Below the pieces are notes generated by a model. That model was not told the origin of the DNA. It saw nothing but the letters and a program-made list of their open reading frames with translations, and did no database searches. A DNA stretch of 27,299 bases from positions 1-27,299 of IMG/VR virus record IMGVR_UViG_3300037076_000286; one strand, 5' to 3'. The stretch is from a virus. The position numbers were made by a program, and so were the translations under genes. This document shows positions 20,200-26,678 of this stretch, piece after piece. Each line of letters starts with the position of its first letter. Position 1 is the stretch's first letter.

Positions 20200-21207
20200 A
20201 TGACCGCGCTTCCCGCCGATCTCGATTTCGTCGCCGATCCGACGGCGTCACCGGCGCGGATGAATCGCGCCATGACCAATCTCAACGGCCGCACCGCCGC
20301 GCTCGAAACCTACAAGCCGAATTTCGACGCGGCGCTGGCGACAATCCAGCAGGTCGGCCTCGATCGCCTCAGTCAGGTGCTGATTCCGATCTACGAGCAA
20401 TTGGTCTCTGTCGCCCAGCTCGGCGCGCTGTTTCGCGCCCATTCGAGCTCGACCCTCGCCGTCGCCGCGGGGCCACAGACCTTGGTTGTCGACCCGGCGC
20501 AGGCGTCGCAGTTCGCCGCCGCAGCCTGGGTCATTGCCGTCAGTGATGACGCTTCGGCGGCGATGGCGGGCCCGGTGACGAGCTACAACCGAACGACAGG
20601 CGCGCTGGTCGTCGATGTCGTCGAAGGCGAAGGGTCGGGAGCTTTCGCCTCATGGACGATCTCGCCCTGGGCGCCGACGCAGCTTTCGACCGGAACCGAC
20701 GACGGCGACATCGATCACCCCGGTCTCACGCCGGTGATCGCTGGCTATCTCAGTCCGGAAGCGGTCGACGCCGTCGCCGACGCCGAGGCTGCAGCCGTAG
20801 CCGCGGCGTCGAGCGAGGCGGCCTCGGCCGGGTCGGCGGGCGCGGCGGCCGCCGATCGCGCAACCACCGCGACGCTGTTGGCGATGTTTCGCGCCGGTTT
20901 CCTCGGCGTCTTCGCCAGCGACGCCGCCGCGGCGGCCTTCGCTGCGGCCAATTCGATCGCGCTCGTCGCCGGCGTTCTCTACCTCAGTAGCGCCACGACG
21001 ACCTACCGCATCTACAGCGGCTCGGCGTGGGGCGACTACACGGCCTCAGTCGTCGCCTCGGTCAACGGCATGGTTGGATCCGTCGTTGGCGTCGAAGTGA
21101 CGGCGAACAAAGGCGCAGCCAACGGCTACGCCAGCCTCGACTCCGGCGGCCGCGTGCCGACGACGCAAATTCCTTCCGGCGCCTCGATCGACGACGGCGC
21201 GATTTAG
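20200..21207 (+). CDS. Fibre-like protein upstream of the DGR target
   Basis: This 335-residue protein starts directly after the previous stop. The N-terminal ~75 residues are helical (TASPARMNRAMTNLNGRTAA, LDRLSQVLIPIYEQL). The middle part is beta, and ~195-260 is an Ala/Ser-rich coiled-coil-like segment (DAVADAEAAAVAAASSEAAS). It contains YRIYSGSAWGDYTA and ends ANGYASLDSGGRVPTTQIPS at ~307-326, the linker motif of phage side-tail fibres. The next gene repeats the same motif near its N-terminus. The protein is probably the shaft or adaptor to which the variable tip protein attaches. It has no repeat matching the TR, so it is not itself a DGR target. Confidence 0.68.
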   Translation: MTALPADLDFVADPTASPARMNRAMTNLNGRTAALETYKPNFDAALATIQQVGLDRLSQVLIPIYEQLVSVAQLGALFRAHSSSTLAVAAGPQTLVVDPAQASQFAAAAWVIAVSDDASAAMAGPVTSYNRTTGALVVDVVEGEGSGAFASWTISPWAPTQLSTGTDDGDIDHPGLTPVIAGYLSPEAVDAVADAEAAAVAAASSEAASAGSAGAAAADRATTATLLAMFRAGFLGVFASDAAAAAFAAANSIALVAGVLYLSSATTTYRIYSGSAWGDYTASVVASVNGMVGSVVGVEVTANKGAANGYASLDSGGRVPTTQIPSGASIDDGAI

Positions 21208-21215
21208 GGCTCGTT

Positions 21216-22694
21216 ATGACCATCCAGATCAAACGCACTAAGGTCGGCACCGCCCCCTCTTCGCTGGCCGACGGCCAGTTGTTCATCGACCAGCTCAACG
21301 GCGTGCTGAAATGGGCCGACTCGACCGGCGCCATCCACGCGACGCCGCTGAAGACGGCGGTCGCCAATGGCCTCGCCTCGCTCGATAGCGGCGGCAAGAT
21401 CCCGACCGCGCAACTGCCCGCCGCGATCGTCGGCGCCTTGCAATATCAGGGCACATGGACCGCCGCGACCAACGTGCCGGCGTTGACCTCCGGCATCGGC
21501 ACGAAGGGAAATTTCTACAAGGTCTCGGCCGCCGGGACGACGGCGATCGACGGCAACGCCGTCTGGCTCGCCGGCGACCTCATCGTGTTCGACGGGCTGG
21601 CGTGGGATCGGATCGACGGCGGCGTCGCCGGCGTCGACTCGACCGATCTGGCGGATTCGACCGCGCTCGGCCGCTCGCTGATCGTCGCGGCCAGCATCGC
21701 CGCCGCGCAATCGGCGCTCGGCCTCAGCCCGAAGGGTTTCTTCTTCAAGGCCGATTCCACGACGCCGGCCTTCAGCGTCACTGGCGCCGGGACGATCAGC
21801 GTCAAGGCCGGGACGATCGCCGAATGCGCCGGGAGCCTGTTCTCCTATGCAACAGCGACGGCGGTGACGATGCCGAGCCTGTCGGCTGGGGGCGACTATT
21901 TCGCTTATCAGTGTCTGGACGGCTCGATCCGCGCCGATGCAAGCGCCACCGCGCCCACCGGCTACACGACCGCCAACAGCCGTCAGATCGGCGGCTTCCA
22001 CTACGCGCCAGGCGGCAACGCCACTGCGATGGCGGGCGGCAACACGACGCCGGCGATCAATCCCTATTCGGTGTGGGATCTGAAGTTTCGCCCGCGCTGC
22101 ATCGATCCGCGCGGCATGGCGCTGGTCGCCGGCCGGTTCTGGGCCGACATCTATCTGACCAACACCGCGACCGACGCCAACGGTTCGTCGCGCTACGGCC
22201 TGGCGATTTGTTCCGGCGGCGTCCCGCCCAAAATTCCCGCCGCGTTCGGCGGCAACGGCTCGACTGCCTACGGCCAGTTCAATTGGTGGGACGCCAACGA
22301 GGTGGTCGCCTCGGCCGGCAAGCGGCTGCTGACGACCGAAGAATTTCAGATCGCCGCCTACGGATCGACCGAAGAAACCTCGCTTTCCGCCGATCCGGTG
22401 ACCACCGGCCTGCAGGCGGGAACCTACACCTCGAAGTGGGGCCTGTTTCAGGCCACCGGCTGCTATTGGGTGTGGGGCCGCGAACTCGGCGGCCCGTACT
22501 CGGCGGCAAGCTGGGCGCAGTCGACCGGCAACCGCGGCCAGTTCTACAACATGCCTAACGCCGGGTTCCTGGGCGGCTTCTTCGGCTTCGGCGCGTCCTC
22601 CGGCTCGCGCGCGTCGATCTGGTTCAACGCCGCCTCGGCCTCGGCCGGCACCACCGGGGCGCGGGGCTGCTGTGACCACCTGATGCTCGTCTAG
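21216..22694 (+). CDS. DGR target: variable receptor-binding tail fibre protein with C-type lectin-like end
   Basis: The ATG at 21216 follows the upstream stop by 8 bases; a longer frame to 21027 only overlaps the previous gene. The protein has 492 residues. Residues ~1-75 are fibre-linker (ANGLASLDSGGKIPTAQLPA). A beta-structured middle part has WTAATNVPALTSGIGTKGN and VWLAGDLIVFDGLAWDRI. Residues ~265-492 match DGR variable proteins of the C-type lectin/FGE-like fold: SRQIGGFHYAPGGN, NPYSVWDLKFRPRC, KRLLTTEEFQIAAYGS, FQATGCYWVWGREL and the C-terminal variable stretch 451-487. Variable residues facing the ligand are expected at 455, 458, 461, 468, 470, 471, 475, 477 and 479. Such proteins bind bacterial surface receptors and determine phage host range, as Mtd does in Bordetella phage BPP-1. 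Confidence 0.93.
   Translation: MTIQIKRTKVGTAPSSLADGQLFIDQLNGVLKWADSTGAIHATPLKTAVANGLASLDSGGKIPTAQLPAAIVGALQYQGTWTAATNVPALTSGIGTKGNFYKVSAAGTTAIDGNAVWLAGDLIVFDGLAWDRIDGGVAGVDSTDLADSTALGRSLIVAASIAAAQSALGLSPKGFFFKADSTTPAFSVTGAGTISVKAGTIAECAGSLFSYATATAVTMPSLSAGGDYFAYQCLDGSIRADASATAPTGYTTANSRQIGGFHYAPGGNATAMAGGNTTPAINPYSVWDLKFRPRCIDPRGMALVAGRFWADIYLTNTATDANGSSRYGLAICSGGVPPKIPAAFGGNGSTAYGQFNWWDANEVVASAGKRLLTTEEFQIAAYGSTEETSLSADPVTTGLQAGTYTSKWGLFQATGCYWVWGRELGGPYSAASWAQSTGNRGQFYNMPNAGFLGGFFGFGASSGSRASIWFNAASASAGTTGARGCCDHLMLV
22567..22676 (+). repeat. Variable repeat (VR) of the DGR
   Basis: This 110-bp segment at the 3' end of the target gene aligns without gaps to the template repeat 564 bases downstream. 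It has 95 identities and 15 differences; 14 differences are opposite TR adenines. It ends with a 14-base pure G/C run (22654-22667) and tgctgtgac, the position expected for the initiation-of-mutagenic-homing site. Beyond 22676 the two copies diverge. The stop codon follows 16 bases later. Confidence 0.95.
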
Positions 22695-22715
22695 CTGAGC
22701 GAAAGCGAGGCGAGA
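22690..22715. promoter_or_regulatory. Putative DGR target-site hairpin with GAAA loop, overlapping the avd ribosome-binding site
   Basis: GCTGAGC (22694-22700) faces GCGAGGC (22705-22711) across a GAAA tetraloop. Five of seven positions pair (one G-T), and the central GA/GA steps could form tandem sheared pairs. TCT/AGA extends the stem outside one mismatch. It begins at the last base of the target stop codon. In BPP-1 a hairpin/cruciform just downstream of the target gene boosts retrohoming. The right arm also contains the GAGG likely to serve avd translation. Confidence 0.5.
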
Positions 22716-22717
22716 GT

Positions 22718-23092
22718 GTGAGTGAGATCGCAAGGGACGACCACGTCGCCCATCAAGGGCTGGCGATCGTCGAGGCCTACGAACAGTTCGTCAATTATCT
22801 CTACCCGATCTTGCAAAACGCGCCGCGCAAGCATGGCGTAGCGCGCGAAATGGCGCTGCAGGCGATGTTTTCGCAGATCGAGTTGTTCTTCGCGGCGGCG
22901 AAATCTCCTCAAGCCTCGCGACTCTATTCCGCTGACGCGCATCTCGCGCAACTGCGGTTCTGGCTACGCTTCATGGCCGACAGCAATCGCCGCATGTTGA
23001 CGCCGCACCAACATCGAGCCGCGCTGGCGCTGCTCGCGACGGTGGGGAAGATGCTCGGCGCTTGGATCAAAACCATGAAGGGTAGGGGTTGA
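22718..23092 (+). CDS. avd: DGR accessory variability determinant (Avd-type four-helix protein)
   Basis: This 124-residue protein (BPP-1 Avd has 128) lies between VR and TR, the usual place. It starts at GTG 22718 with GAGG at 22707-22710; no ATG gives a full-length product. It is all-helical with four predicted helices: HVAHQGLAIVEAYEQFVNYL, then ILQNAPRKHGVAREMALQAM, then DAHLAQLRFWLRFMADSN and HRAALALLATVGKMLGAWIK. Avd proteins form a basic, barrel-like pentamer that binds nucleic acid and the reverse transcriptase and are required for template-primed cDNA synthesis. The YPILQNAPRKH and LRFWLRFM segments are typical of the family. The last helix is basic (IKTMKGRG). Confidence 0.9.
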   Translation: MSEIARDDHVAHQGLAIVEAYEQFVNYLYPILQNAPRKHGVAREMALQAMFSQIELFFAAAKSPQASRLYSADAHLAQLRFWLRFMADSNRRMLTPHQHRAALALLATVGKMLGAWIKTMKGRG

Positions 23093-23130
23093 GTGAGGGC
23101 AAAGCCAGGCCGCGCATCGTTGCGCCGTGA

Positions 23131-23240
23131 TCCTGGGCGGCAACTTCGGCAACGGCGCGAACTCCGGCTCGCGCGCGTCGAACTGGAACAACGCCGCCTC
23201 GAACTCGAACGGCAACATCGGGGCGCGGGGCTGCTGTGAC
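23131..23240 (+). ncRNA. Template repeat (TR) of the DGR, part of the template RNA
   Basis: This 110-bp invariant donor copy lies in the 291-base gap between avd and the reverse transcriptase. It has nine AAC codons in the target frame, so adenine mutagenesis can give many amino acids but never a stop codon. Homology seems to extend weakly upstream to 23123, including one more A-to-T change at 23130. A frame open through the TR (GTG 23127) is a by-product and not a gene. The transcript probably also includes the avd end and the ~143-base spacer downstream. Confidence 0.93.
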
Positions 23241-23383
23241 GACCAATTGGGACTCTGCGTCGGTCATGGCCGCGCAGGTCGGCTACCTCGACGGTGGTCA
23301 GCTCGCTCGACCTGCTTCGGCGAATACATTGCGCGGTTCGGCAGAGCGGGGAGTAGGCGTTCGAAACCCGCGGCCGGCTCGCA
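23241..23383 (+). ncRNA. TR-RT spacer, probable functional part of the template RNA
   Basis: This 143-base non-coding stretch has no credible gene. In BPP-1 a spacer of about 140 bases directly downstream of TR is required for Avd-RT to prime cDNA synthesis, so a matching role is inferred from position and length. It contains self-complementary G/C-rich words (ccgcggccgg, gcgcaggtcggc). No strong ribosome-binding site for the RT is visible at its end. Confidence 0.55.
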
Positions 23384-24358
23384 ATGGGTAAGAAGCATCG
23401 TAATCTGATCGGTCTCATCGTCGATGCCGACAACATGCGTCAAGCGCTGCAGCAGGCGGCACGCGGCAAGCGGCGTTCGGTCGGCTACCTGGAGTTCAAG
23501 GAATACGGCGAGCTCAATCTCGAGCTGCTCGCCGAAGAGATCGCCGCCGGAGCCTATCGCCCGGCCGCGCCGCATCAGTTCGTCGTGTTCGAGCCCAAGC
23601 GTCGCGTGATCTCGGCGCCGACGTTCTGCGACCGCGTCGCGCAGCACGCGCTGGTCAATGTGATTGGGCCGATCCTCGACGCCGGGCTGTTGCCGCGCGC
23701 CTACGCCTGCCGCGAAGGGAAGGGGACACACGCTGCGGTGATCGCCCTGCAGTCGGATATGCGCCGCCTCGGCGCGCCGCTCTACGCGCTAAAGACGGAT
23801 TTCTCGCGGTTCTTTCCGTCGATCGACCGAGTGATCCTCAATCGGTTGATCGCCAAGAAGATCACCTGCGCTGCGACGATTGGCCTGATCGAAGCGATCA
23901 CGCCGCCGGACGGCGTCGGCCTGCCGATCGGCGCGCTGACCAGCCAGATCTACGCCAACGTCTACGCCGGCCAGGTCGACCGGATGCTGCAATGCGATCT
24001 CAAACGGCGGTTTTGGTATCGCTACATGGACGACATCGTCGTCCTCGGCCGCTCTTCGGAGCGCCTGCGCGCGGTCAAAGACCGCATCGAATCGTTCTCC
24101 CTGGCCGAGCTGGGGCTACGGTTCAGTCATTGGGGCGTCGCGCCGATCAGCCGCGGCGTGAACTTCCTCGGCTATCGCATTTGGCCGACGCACAAGCTGT
24201 TGCGCCGCCAAAGCGTTCGCCGCGCCCGGCGCCGTCTACGCGAACTCACTGCGGCCGGCGATCCTGAAGCGCTGGCGGCGTTCCGCGCCGCGTGGCTCGG
24301 CCACGCTCAATGGGCGGACTCGCATCATCTTCTGAAGAGCCTCGGATTGGAGACGTGA
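23384..24358 (+). CDS. DGR-type reverse transcriptase
   Basis: This 324-residue protein (BPP-1 RT has 328) copies TR RNA into cDNA with adenine-specific errors. RT motifs are in order: RSVGYLEFKEYGELNLELLA (motif 1 region), CREGKGTHAA, motif 3 KTDFSRFFPSID with catalytic D139, LPIGALTSQIYANVY at 180-194, catalytic YMDD at 214-217, and the thumb-like GVNFLGYRIWPTHKLL. IGxxxSQ in place of the QGxxxSP of group II intron RTs is the hallmark of DGR enzymes and relates to their low fidelity at adenine. No maturase or endonuclease domain is present. The start at 23384 gives the usual short basic N-terminus (MGKKHRNLIGLIVDADNMRQ). The next tail gene begins three bases after its stop. Confidence 0.96.
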   Translation: MGKKHRNLIGLIVDADNMRQALQQAARGKRRSVGYLEFKEYGELNLELLAEEIAAGAYRPAAPHQFVVFEPKRRVISAPTFCDRVAQHALVNVIGPILDAGLLPRAYACREGKGTHAAVIALQSDMRRLGAPLYALKTDFSRFFPSIDRVILNRLIAKKITCAATIGLIEAITPPDGVGLPIGALTSQIYANVYAGQVDRMLQCDLKRRFWYRYMDDIVVLGRSSERLRAVKDRIESFSLAELGLRFSHWGVAPISRGVNFLGYRIWPTHKLLRRQSVRRARRRLRELTAAGDPEALAAFRAAWLGHAQWADSHHLLKSLGLET

Positions 24359-24361
24359 ACG

Positions 24362-24922
24362 ATGGCAATTCTCAACACGCCGGCGGACCTCGCCGCACTC
24401 AAAGGCTCGCCCGACTACGCCGCGGCGCTGCAAATCTTGCTCGGCTCGACCCAGACCTGGGTCAATCAGGCCGCGGTGGGAGCTCCGCCGAATTGGCAGC
24501 TTGTCACCGTCCTCTCGACGATCGAGGCGATGGGCTTCATGACGGTCGACGAGCTGCTCGCCGAATGCGCCGCCGCCGGCGTCGTCGCGCCGCCCGCACC
24601 GGCGCAGCCCGCCCCGCCGCCGCCCGCACCGCCGACCACCGTGCAGATGTGGCAGGCGAAGGCGGCGTTGAAGGCGGCCGCCTTCGTGCCGTCGCAGGCG
24701 CAAACCGCCGCCCAGGCCACGGTCGCCAACACGACCAATCTGCTCGACGCCGCCAACGCGCTAATCGCCGCCTCGGGCAACGGGGCGCTGCAAGCGTTCT
24801 GGGAATATGCGACCGCGCTGCAATCCGACAACGCGATGATCGCCTCGCTGGGCGCGCAACTCGGCCTGTCGCCAGCGCAAATCGCGGCGCTGTTCGCTGC
24901 CGCGGCGGCGCTGTCGTTCTGA
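24362..24922 (+). CDS. Fibre-region small protein, possible tail fibre assembly/chaperone
   Basis: This 186-residue protein starts three bases after the RT stop and is probably co-transcribed with it. Residues 1-80 are helical (NTPADLAALKGSPDYAAALQ, then NWQLVTVLSTIEAMGFMTVD). Residues ~76-90 are a Pro/Ala hinge, and the C-terminal ~95 residues (TVQMWQAKAALKAAAF, ALQAFWEYATALQSDNAMI, LGLSPAQIAALFAAAA) resemble the C-terminal module of small phage tail-fibre accessory proteins. That module is typically found downstream of fibre genes and is thought to aid fibre folding or assembly. I infer a chaperone or accessory role for the variable fibre protein. An alternative is a minor structural protein. 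No catalytic motif is visible. Confidence 0.55.
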   Translation: MAILNTPADLAALKGSPDYAAALQILLGSTQTWVNQAAVGAPPNWQLVTVLSTIEAMGFMTVDELLAECAAAGVVAPPAPAQPAPPPPAPPTTVQMWQAKAALKAAAFVPSQAQTAAQATVANTTNLLDAANALIAASGNGALQAFWEYATALQSDNAMIASLGAQLGLSPAQIAALFAAAAALSF

Positions 24923-24968: not shown

Positions 24969-26678
24969 ATGACCGAACCGGCCTATGGCATCATCATCAA
25001 TGAAAGCTACGCCGGCCCGTTGCCGGTGCAGTCCGGCGACTTCTCGGTCATCGGTCTGCTGCTGCCCGCCGACGACGCCGATGCGGCGACGTTCCCGCTC
25101 AACACGCCGGTGCAGTTCAACTCGTCCGACTCGACCTATCTCGGCAAGGCGGGCACGGGCGACTTCGCCAAGGCGCTGACGGCGATCAACAACCAACTGG
25201 CGGCGTGGCAGAGCGCCGCCAGCGTCGTCGCGGTGCTGGTCGCCCGCGGCGTCGACCGGCCGACGACGATCGCCAACCTGGTCGGCTCCTCAGTCGCTCT
25301 GACCGGCCTCTACGCCTTCCTCAAGGCGGGCGCGCTGACGATGACCATCCCGCGCCTGATCGGCTCGCCCGGCTATACCGGCGACGTCGGCCTGGGTGTC
25401 ACTGCGCCGACGGTCAGCGCCGCCGGCATCGGCTTTACAGCGGCGCCGGCGGTCGCGTTCTCGCCGGCTGGCGCGACGGCTCACGCCGTGCTCGCCGTCG
25501 CCAACGGCATCGATGACCCCGTCGTCACCGCCGGCGGCTCGGACTACACGCATGCGGCGGTCGTGTTCACGCCCGCCGGCGCCACGGCGCATGCGGTCCT
25601 CACGGCGGGAGCCGTCAGCTCGGTCATCATGGATTTGCCGGGCGCCTACGAGGAAGGCGTCATGCCCACCGCCGCGATCACCGGCGACGGGGCCGGTGCG
25701 ACGATGAGCTTCAGCCTGTTCCAGAACTCCTCGGTCGGCTCGATCGTTATGGACAGCCCCGGCGCTTACGGCGCCGGCGTCGACGTGACCGCAACGATCT
25801 CGGGCGGTGGCGGAAGCGGCGCCACCATGGGCTTCACCATGGCGCCCGTGAGCAACCCGCTGTGTGCGGCGCTGCCGGCGGTGCTGAAATCTCTGTTGGC
25901 GAAAGCGATCGTCGGCTCTTCCGGCGACGGTGTCGTCGCCGACACCTTCACCTGGCGTCAGACGCTGTCGTCGGATCGGCTTGACCCGGCCGACGCGTGG
26001 GTCATTCCCGGCTCCGGTGTGGGTTACACCGATGGCGTCGCCGAAGCGCTCGGCGCGCAGGTCGCGGTCGACTTCCAGCACGCCGGTATCCCCGGCTGGT
26101 CGATCTCCGGCCAGCAGATCAACGGCATCGGCGGCCTGAAGACTTATTACAGCTTCAGCCTCACCGACGGCGCGATGCAAGGCCAGGAACTGCTCGCCCA
26201 GCAGGTTAGCGTGATAGAGCCCGGCGCGATCGGCTCCGACACTGCAATCGCCTCGAGCGGCTACGTCTGGGCCGGTGTGTGGAACGCCTCGACCGACCCG
26301 CGCGCCTGGTTCTCCAACAAGCGGCGGATGAAGGACTACGTCAACCTGGCGCTGGTCAAGGCGATCCGGCTGCGGCTCGGCGTCGACAACGTGACGCCGC
26401 ATGCGGTGCAGGCGGTGCTCAACGATATGGTGGTGTTGGGATCCTGGCTGTTGTCGAAGCAAATCAGCATCGGCTTCAAGGTGTCGTTTGTGCCGAGCCA
26501 GAATTCGCCCTCGCAGTTGCAGCAAGGCCAGTTCGTCGTGTCGTTCGCCAACGAGGTGCCGGCGCCGATTACTCAGGTCACCGTCAACTCGAGCGACGAT
26601 CCCGATGCACTGACCGTCGAGCTGGCGACCATCATCGCCCAAGCCAACACCATCGCGCCGCAATACCTGACTTCGTAA
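24969..26678 (+). CDS. Contractile tail sheath protein with a repeat insertion
   Basis: This 569-residue protein (P2 FI has 396) has a GAAGGA site before its ATG. The N-terminus matches sheath family starts (GIIINESYAGPLPVQSGDFS, then VIGLLLPADDADAATFPLNT). The C-terminal core is diagnostic: RRMKDYVNLALVKAIRLRLG, GSWLLSKQISIGFKVSFVP, LQQGQFVVSFANEVPAPITQ. The sheath surrounds the tube and contracts to drive it through the host envelope. Residues ~146-295 are an insertion made of about four ~35-residue beta repeats (AGGSDYTHAAVVFTPAGATA and PGAYGAGVDVTATISGGGGS are two of them), probably exposed on the sheath surface. The gene order fibre, sheath, tube is P2-like. Confidence 0.92.
   Translation: MTEPAYGIIINESYAGPLPVQSGDFSVIGLLLPADDADAATFPLNTPVQFNSSDSTYLGKAGTGDFAKALTAINNQLAAWQSAASVVAVLVARGVDRPTTIANLVGSSVALTGLYAFLKAGALTMTIPRLIGSPGYTGDVGLGVTAPTVSAAGIGFTAAPAVAFSPAGATAHAVLAVANGIDDPVVTAGGSDYTHAAVVFTPAGATAHAVLTAGAVSSVIMDLPGAYEEGVMPTAAITGDGAGATMSFSLFQNSSVGSIVMDSPGAYGAGVDVTATISGGGGSGATMGFTMAPVSNPLCAALPAVLKSLLAKAIVGSSGDGVVADTFTWRQTLSSDRLDPADAWVIPGSGVGYTDGVAEALGAQVAVDFQHAGIPGWSISGQQINGIGGLKTYYSFSLTDGAMQGQELLAQQVSVIEPGAIGSDTAIASSGYVWAGVWNASTDPRAWFSNKRRMKDYVNLALVKAIRLRLGVDNVTPHAVQAVLNDMVVLGSWLLSKQISIGFKVSFVPSQNSPSQLQQGQFVVSFANEVPAPITQVTVNSSDDPDALTVELATIIAQANTIAPQYLTS

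Follow-up and report, generated by a model that had tools for sequence, protein, structure and literature searches.

We analysed a 27,299-base virus sequence from IMG/VR (record IMGVR_UViG_3300037076_000286; this whole stretch is called the window below), which is probably a fragment of a viral genome, and describe a diversity-generating retroelement (DGR) at positions 21216-24358. All of its parts lie on the plus strand: a target gene carrying the variable repeat (VR), the accessory variability determinant gene avd, the template repeat (TR), a DGR RNA and the gene for the reverse transcriptase (RT). The original prediction had claimed a complete DGR in the order VR-avd-TR-RT on a single strand, and each part that it named was located as described. 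It had overlooked the DGR RNA and a stem-loop that follows the VR.

The target gene (21216..22694, + strand) encodes a variable protein of 492 amino acids, composed of a fibre-like module (residues ~1-172) followed by Mtd-like second and C-type-lectin domains (residues 173-491). It matches Pfam mtd_2nd (E = 2.9e-25) and PHROG 11262, a tail protein (E = 5e-113). Residues 173-491 match the Mtd-M1 structure, PDB 1yu2 (E = 4e-96), and are ~50% identical to Mtd of phage BPP-1; judged by this homology, the VR would occupy the 3' end of a gene encoding a C-type-lectin fold. The first 172 residues (21216-21731) are unrelated to Mtd and fibre-like. The fibre-like gene immediately upstream (20200..21207, + strand) has a short motif, SLDSGGR/KxPTxQ/LP, in common with the target N-terminus, and both products match PHROG 13892, a minor tail protein (E = 1.5e-8 for the upstream product and 2.6e-20 for the target). 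The common motif suggests a modular swap between a fibre N-terminus and the Mtd-like tip.

The avd gene (22718..23092, + strand) was identified through NCBIfam NF033474 (105.5 bits; cut-off 80) and Pfam bAvd (E = 2e-31), and its product is 52% identical to Avd of BPP-1. The RT gene (23384..24358, + strand) encodes 324 amino acids, is 56% identical to the BPP-1 enzyme, bRT, over 317 residues, matches PHROG 1423 (E = 4e-107) and contains both motifs recognized in the original prediction, within LPIGALTSQ and RYMDD. Placed against other RT classes, as had been proposed there, the protein is a DGR RT and does not group with non-DGR RTs, the BPP-1 RT structure (PDB 8ub7) being by far the best match (E = 2.4e-116); group II intron RTs (best E = 4e-16) and retron RTs match far less well. 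The spacer between TR and RT (23252..23378, + strand) matches Rfam RF03022, Phage_DGR, over the full model (positions 1-127; 97.6 bits, cut-off 50; E = 1.3e-17). This DGR RNA also occurs in two close relatives, L003 and L004, and is conserved over 33 aligned sequences. In BPP-1, the corresponding spacer RNA recruits and primes the RT.

The VR (22559-22676, + strand) comprises 118 bases matching the TR (23123-23240, + strand) and terminates in a GC-rich initiation of mutagenic homing (IMH) region, CGGGGCGCGGGGCTGCTGTGAC, which is common to both repeats and beyond which they diverge; the 3' part of the TR constitutes IMH*. The repeats differ at 17 of 118 positions, and 15 of these differences fall on the 21 adenines of the TR (hypergeometric P = 1.8e-12). 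The nine altered codons of the original prediction were recovered as nine changed AAC codons at the 3' end of the target gene, but adenine-only differences have changed an ATC codon as well. The two non-adenine differences are T->G at 22564 and T->C at 22654. No further VR was found in the window, where just two TR-like places were detected.

Comparison with related elements provides a record of homing. In L003, the closest relative (RT 98% identical), the TR shows 0/118 differences from that of the window, whereas the VR departs from that of the window at 16 positions, and 14 of these are TR adenine sites; 4.3% of bases differ between the two RT genes. In L004 (RT 90% identical), four bases of the TR are substituted by comparison with the window TR inside a 117-base match, and all four changes (4/4) recur in the VR of L004 itself. 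The TR/VR mismatches within L003 and within L004 are adenine-only, and other close pairs of relatives show the same pattern. Because an identical TR accompanies a diverged VR in L003, and TR changes are mirrored in the VR of L004, homing appears to have been active since these lineages split; read from these alignments, TR sequence has passed into the VR after the L004 and window lineages parted. The original prediction expected VRs to vary among relatives, and they are indeed non-identical, nearly all of the differences falling on TR adenines. In relatives, 210 distinct TR/VR pairs together contain 2,680 mismatches at A and 107 elsewhere, a ratio that is illustrative only and biased because the pair finder tolerated A mismatches, although the window's own count is unaffected.

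In nineteen relatives a single TR is accompanied by two or more VRs, for the most part in duplicated target genes (L008, L009, L014-L016, L019, L020, L027, L030, L032, L033, L037, L048, L049, L059, L073, L083, L089 and L107).

The stem-loop behind the VR (22694..22711, + strand) is the 18-mer GCTGAGCGAAAGCGAGGC, which divides as GCTGAGC-GAAA-GCGAGGC. Its GRNA loop, GAAA, lies at 22701-22704, and the structure overlaps the stop codon of the target gene. According to PMC3240598, the hairpins of described phage DGRs carry a GRNA loop on a GC-rich stem of 7-10 bp and stand 4-34 bases past the VR. Loop and position in the window fit that description, but the stem does not: pairing needs a tandem G.A / A.G at pairs 3-4 from the loop and an adjacent G-T wobble, and no Watson-Crick stem of at least 5 bp is present at the post-VR site of the window. 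The hairpin is predicted at only ~-1.6 kcal/mol by a nearest-neighbour DNA model. As reported in PMC3240598, the BPP-1 stem-loop is required for efficient homing, and weakening its stem by GC->AT changes reduced homing; for that reason we are cautious about the function of a weak stem. In a reconstituted BPP-1 DGR, deletion of the stem-loop impaired homing without abolishing it (PMC12875486).

The recurrence of this unusual stem was assessed in 269 related loci. A TR and VR were found in 224 of these, and 160 distinct post-VR hairpins were chosen by their loop, pairs 1-2 and pairs 5-7, with pairs 3-4 excluded from selection. At pairs 3-4, 119 of the 160 hairpins are Watson-Crick, 28 are exactly tandem 5'-GA/5'-GA and 13 are of other types, so that where both pairs are mismatched the tandem GA is found in 28 of 29 cases. 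The purines lie on the sense strand in every tandem-GA hairpin (sense GAGC-GRNA-GCGA). Mapped onto a FastTree phylogeny of the RT, a quick tree with some long branches, the GA label must change 10 times, and well-supported branches force six or more of these changes; the variant has therefore been gained or lost repeatedly. One hairpin, that of L103, contains two consecutive tandem-GA blocks (GAGCGAGC-GAAA-GCGAGCGA), and L048 has a Watson-Crick hairpin after one of its VRs and a tandem-GA-like, otherwise irregular hairpin after the other.

Searching 1.26 Mb of DGR loci for GAGC-GRNA-GCGA returned 31 sense matches and one antisense match. Twenty-nine of the sense matches lie 5-45 bases after a VR, although these are not independent, as the loci include contigs that overlap or are nearly identical; this clustering rules out a chance origin of the motif. 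Across all of IMG/VR, the motif stands behind an IMH consensus in 35 stretches, 29 of which have DGR proteins alongside, whereas the mirror control (tandem TC) behind the same consensus gave 10 stretches, none at a DGR. A hidden Watson-Crick hairpin was likewise rejected as an explanation of the GA class, given that a stem longer than 5 bp is available in only 1 of 28 loci. Within this class, two close pairs (window/L003 and L257/L254) each share one TR sequence while their VRs differ at adenines, and the variant thus appears compatible with homing.

In a DNA energy model, the sense hairpin was more stable than its complement in 28 of 28 members of the GA class. Both strands of that class nevertheless score low, with mean energies of -2.4 kcal/mol (sense) and -1.4 (complement), compared with -9.6 among the Watson-Crick hairpins. 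The model may underrate tandem GA, whose bases are able to pair stably in the sheared geometry. By a narrow balance, we favour the view that the homing stem-loop has a second, recurrent form with tandem G.A at pairs 3-4, which would work as a one-strand hairpin, in single-stranded sense DNA or in a transcript, rather than as a two-strand cruciform, since the purines are always in sense and the complement would carry T.C mismatches. A sense-favoured hairpin fits the picture of Guo et al. and supplies natural variants with which that picture can be tested. No published description of the tandem-GA stem was found in a search of mainly open-access papers, which for PMC3240598 extended to the text but not the figures. 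It is the sole part of the element that specialists might find new.

Taken as a whole, the element is almost certainly a BPP-1-type DGR, complete in its parts and carried by a contractile-tailed phage. It is assigned to that class because all of the defining features that can be tested are present, save for a purely Watson-Crick stem; such a stem is a typical and not an obligatory feature, and its absence excludes no DGR. By analogy with BPP-1, an avd-TR-spacer-RT transcript would be reverse transcribed by an RT-Avd complex that makes mistakes at TR adenines, and the resulting cDNA would replace the VR of the Mtd-like receptor-binding protein, thereby varying about ten codons at the C-type-lectin tip. 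BPP-1 is also the source for three further points, which would be expected to hold here too: error-prone priming from inside the spacer RNA, the use of the IMH and stem-loop in homing, and a switch of receptors. A change of host range through the diversified protein, as had been envisaged for this phage, is likewise a role that Mtd suggests.

Two observations weigh against this reading. The two non-adenine TR/VR differences may be ordinary mutation after the last homing event, and the low stability predicted for the hairpin could mean that homing is weaker here than in BPP-1. Both would also suit a relic, in which the parts are intact but homing has ceased and left the VR fixed. Every gene is intact, however, a relative whose TR is identical has a VR that departs from the window's at 14 adenine sites, and the TR/VR mismatches within L003 and L004 are confined to adenines, which together make a relic very improbable. 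Still less credible is an RT of another class (retron, group II intron or DRT, a defence type) that happens to lie near a tail gene and a coincidental repeat. Generic matches to PADLOC RT and DRT profiles and to a group II model (96.5 bits, cut-off 300) could be cited for it, but the curated cut-offs of those classes are not reached, and the far better bRT match, the presence of Avd and RF03022, and the TR/VR adenine bias rule it out. Ordinary duplication of a gene fragment followed by divergence under selection, to which direct repeats separated by 564 bases might point, is the least plausible of all and is ruled out by the adenine bias, with differences nearly all at TR A positions among the relatives too and the non-A changes of the L004 TR mirrored in its VR. 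The preferred reading is accordingly that of a clean BPP-1-type DGR of the ordinary sort, apparently active, in a setting of a known kind.

That setting consists of a lambda-type large terminase, a lambda-E-type capsid protein, a P2-type tail protein I (Tail_P2_I, E = 2e-17) and a contractile sheath, and the DGR sits between the fibre-like genes and the sheath gene (24969..26678, + strand, downstream of the DGR; PHROG 23, E = 3e-25). The sheath and the P2-type baseplate gene mark the phage, as far as genes can tell, as a myovirus. A small open reading frame (ORF) at 24362-24922, between the RT and sheath genes, matches PHROG 6034; Vibrio phage VP58.5 has a small ORF in the same place. Directly upstream of the head genes is a gene for a NusG/KOW-like phage antiterminator (3780-4406; PF02357, E = 4e-5; PHROG 6386). 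Relatives of the RT in named genomes belong mostly to Alphaproteobacteria (Hyphomicrobiales), which agrees with the alphaproteobacterial host suggested in the original prediction but is no proof of it. The same account had treated the combination of a lambda-type head and a P2-type tail as distinctive; as a novelty this did not hold up against the gene order of VP58.5, the phage VHML and the DGR of a kappa-like Vibrio prophage, and the genomic setting is already known.

The closest well-characterized system is the BPP-1 DGR (mtd-avd-TR-brt), which agrees with the window in order, strand, all genes (~50-56% identity), the spacer RNA and a GRNA stem-loop overlapping the target stop codon. BPP-1 differs in being a podovirus and in having a stem of 8 Watson-Crick pairs where the window has a tandem G.A, and the target of the window has an N-terminal module that is longer and unrelated. 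The nearest parallel in gene order is VP58.5 (Vhmlvirus), which also presents the series baseplate, tail I, tail fibre, target, avd, RT, small ORF and sheath. VP58.5 and VHML have a contractile P2-type tail like that of the window, and VHML joins a P2-like tail module to a lambda-like remainder (PMC10612066). Their RT, on the other hand, is only 38% identical, their hairpin is Watson-Crick, and their target is annotated as a SUMF1/EgtB/PvdO type, as opposed to the Mtd type of the window. A BPP-1-type cassette has also been reported in a kappa-like prophage of Vibrio cholerae HE-09, in which the resident tail-fibre gene is fused to mtd and the DGR was described as a 2.9-kb unit transferred from a BIP-1-like phage (PMC3521204); host and phage differ from those considered here. 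Pseudoalteromonas phages ACA1 and ACA2 are P2-like myoviruses with a DGR adjoining the anti-receptor gene (PMC10612066), and their RT is ~37% identical to that of the window. A phage-related DGR in an alphaproteobacterium, Rhodospirillum centenum, is listed in PMC3240598, and large surveys of metagenomic and viral DGRs have been published (Roux et al. 2021, PMC8144416). To this well-described class, the element adds one example, together with a clear natural record of homing.

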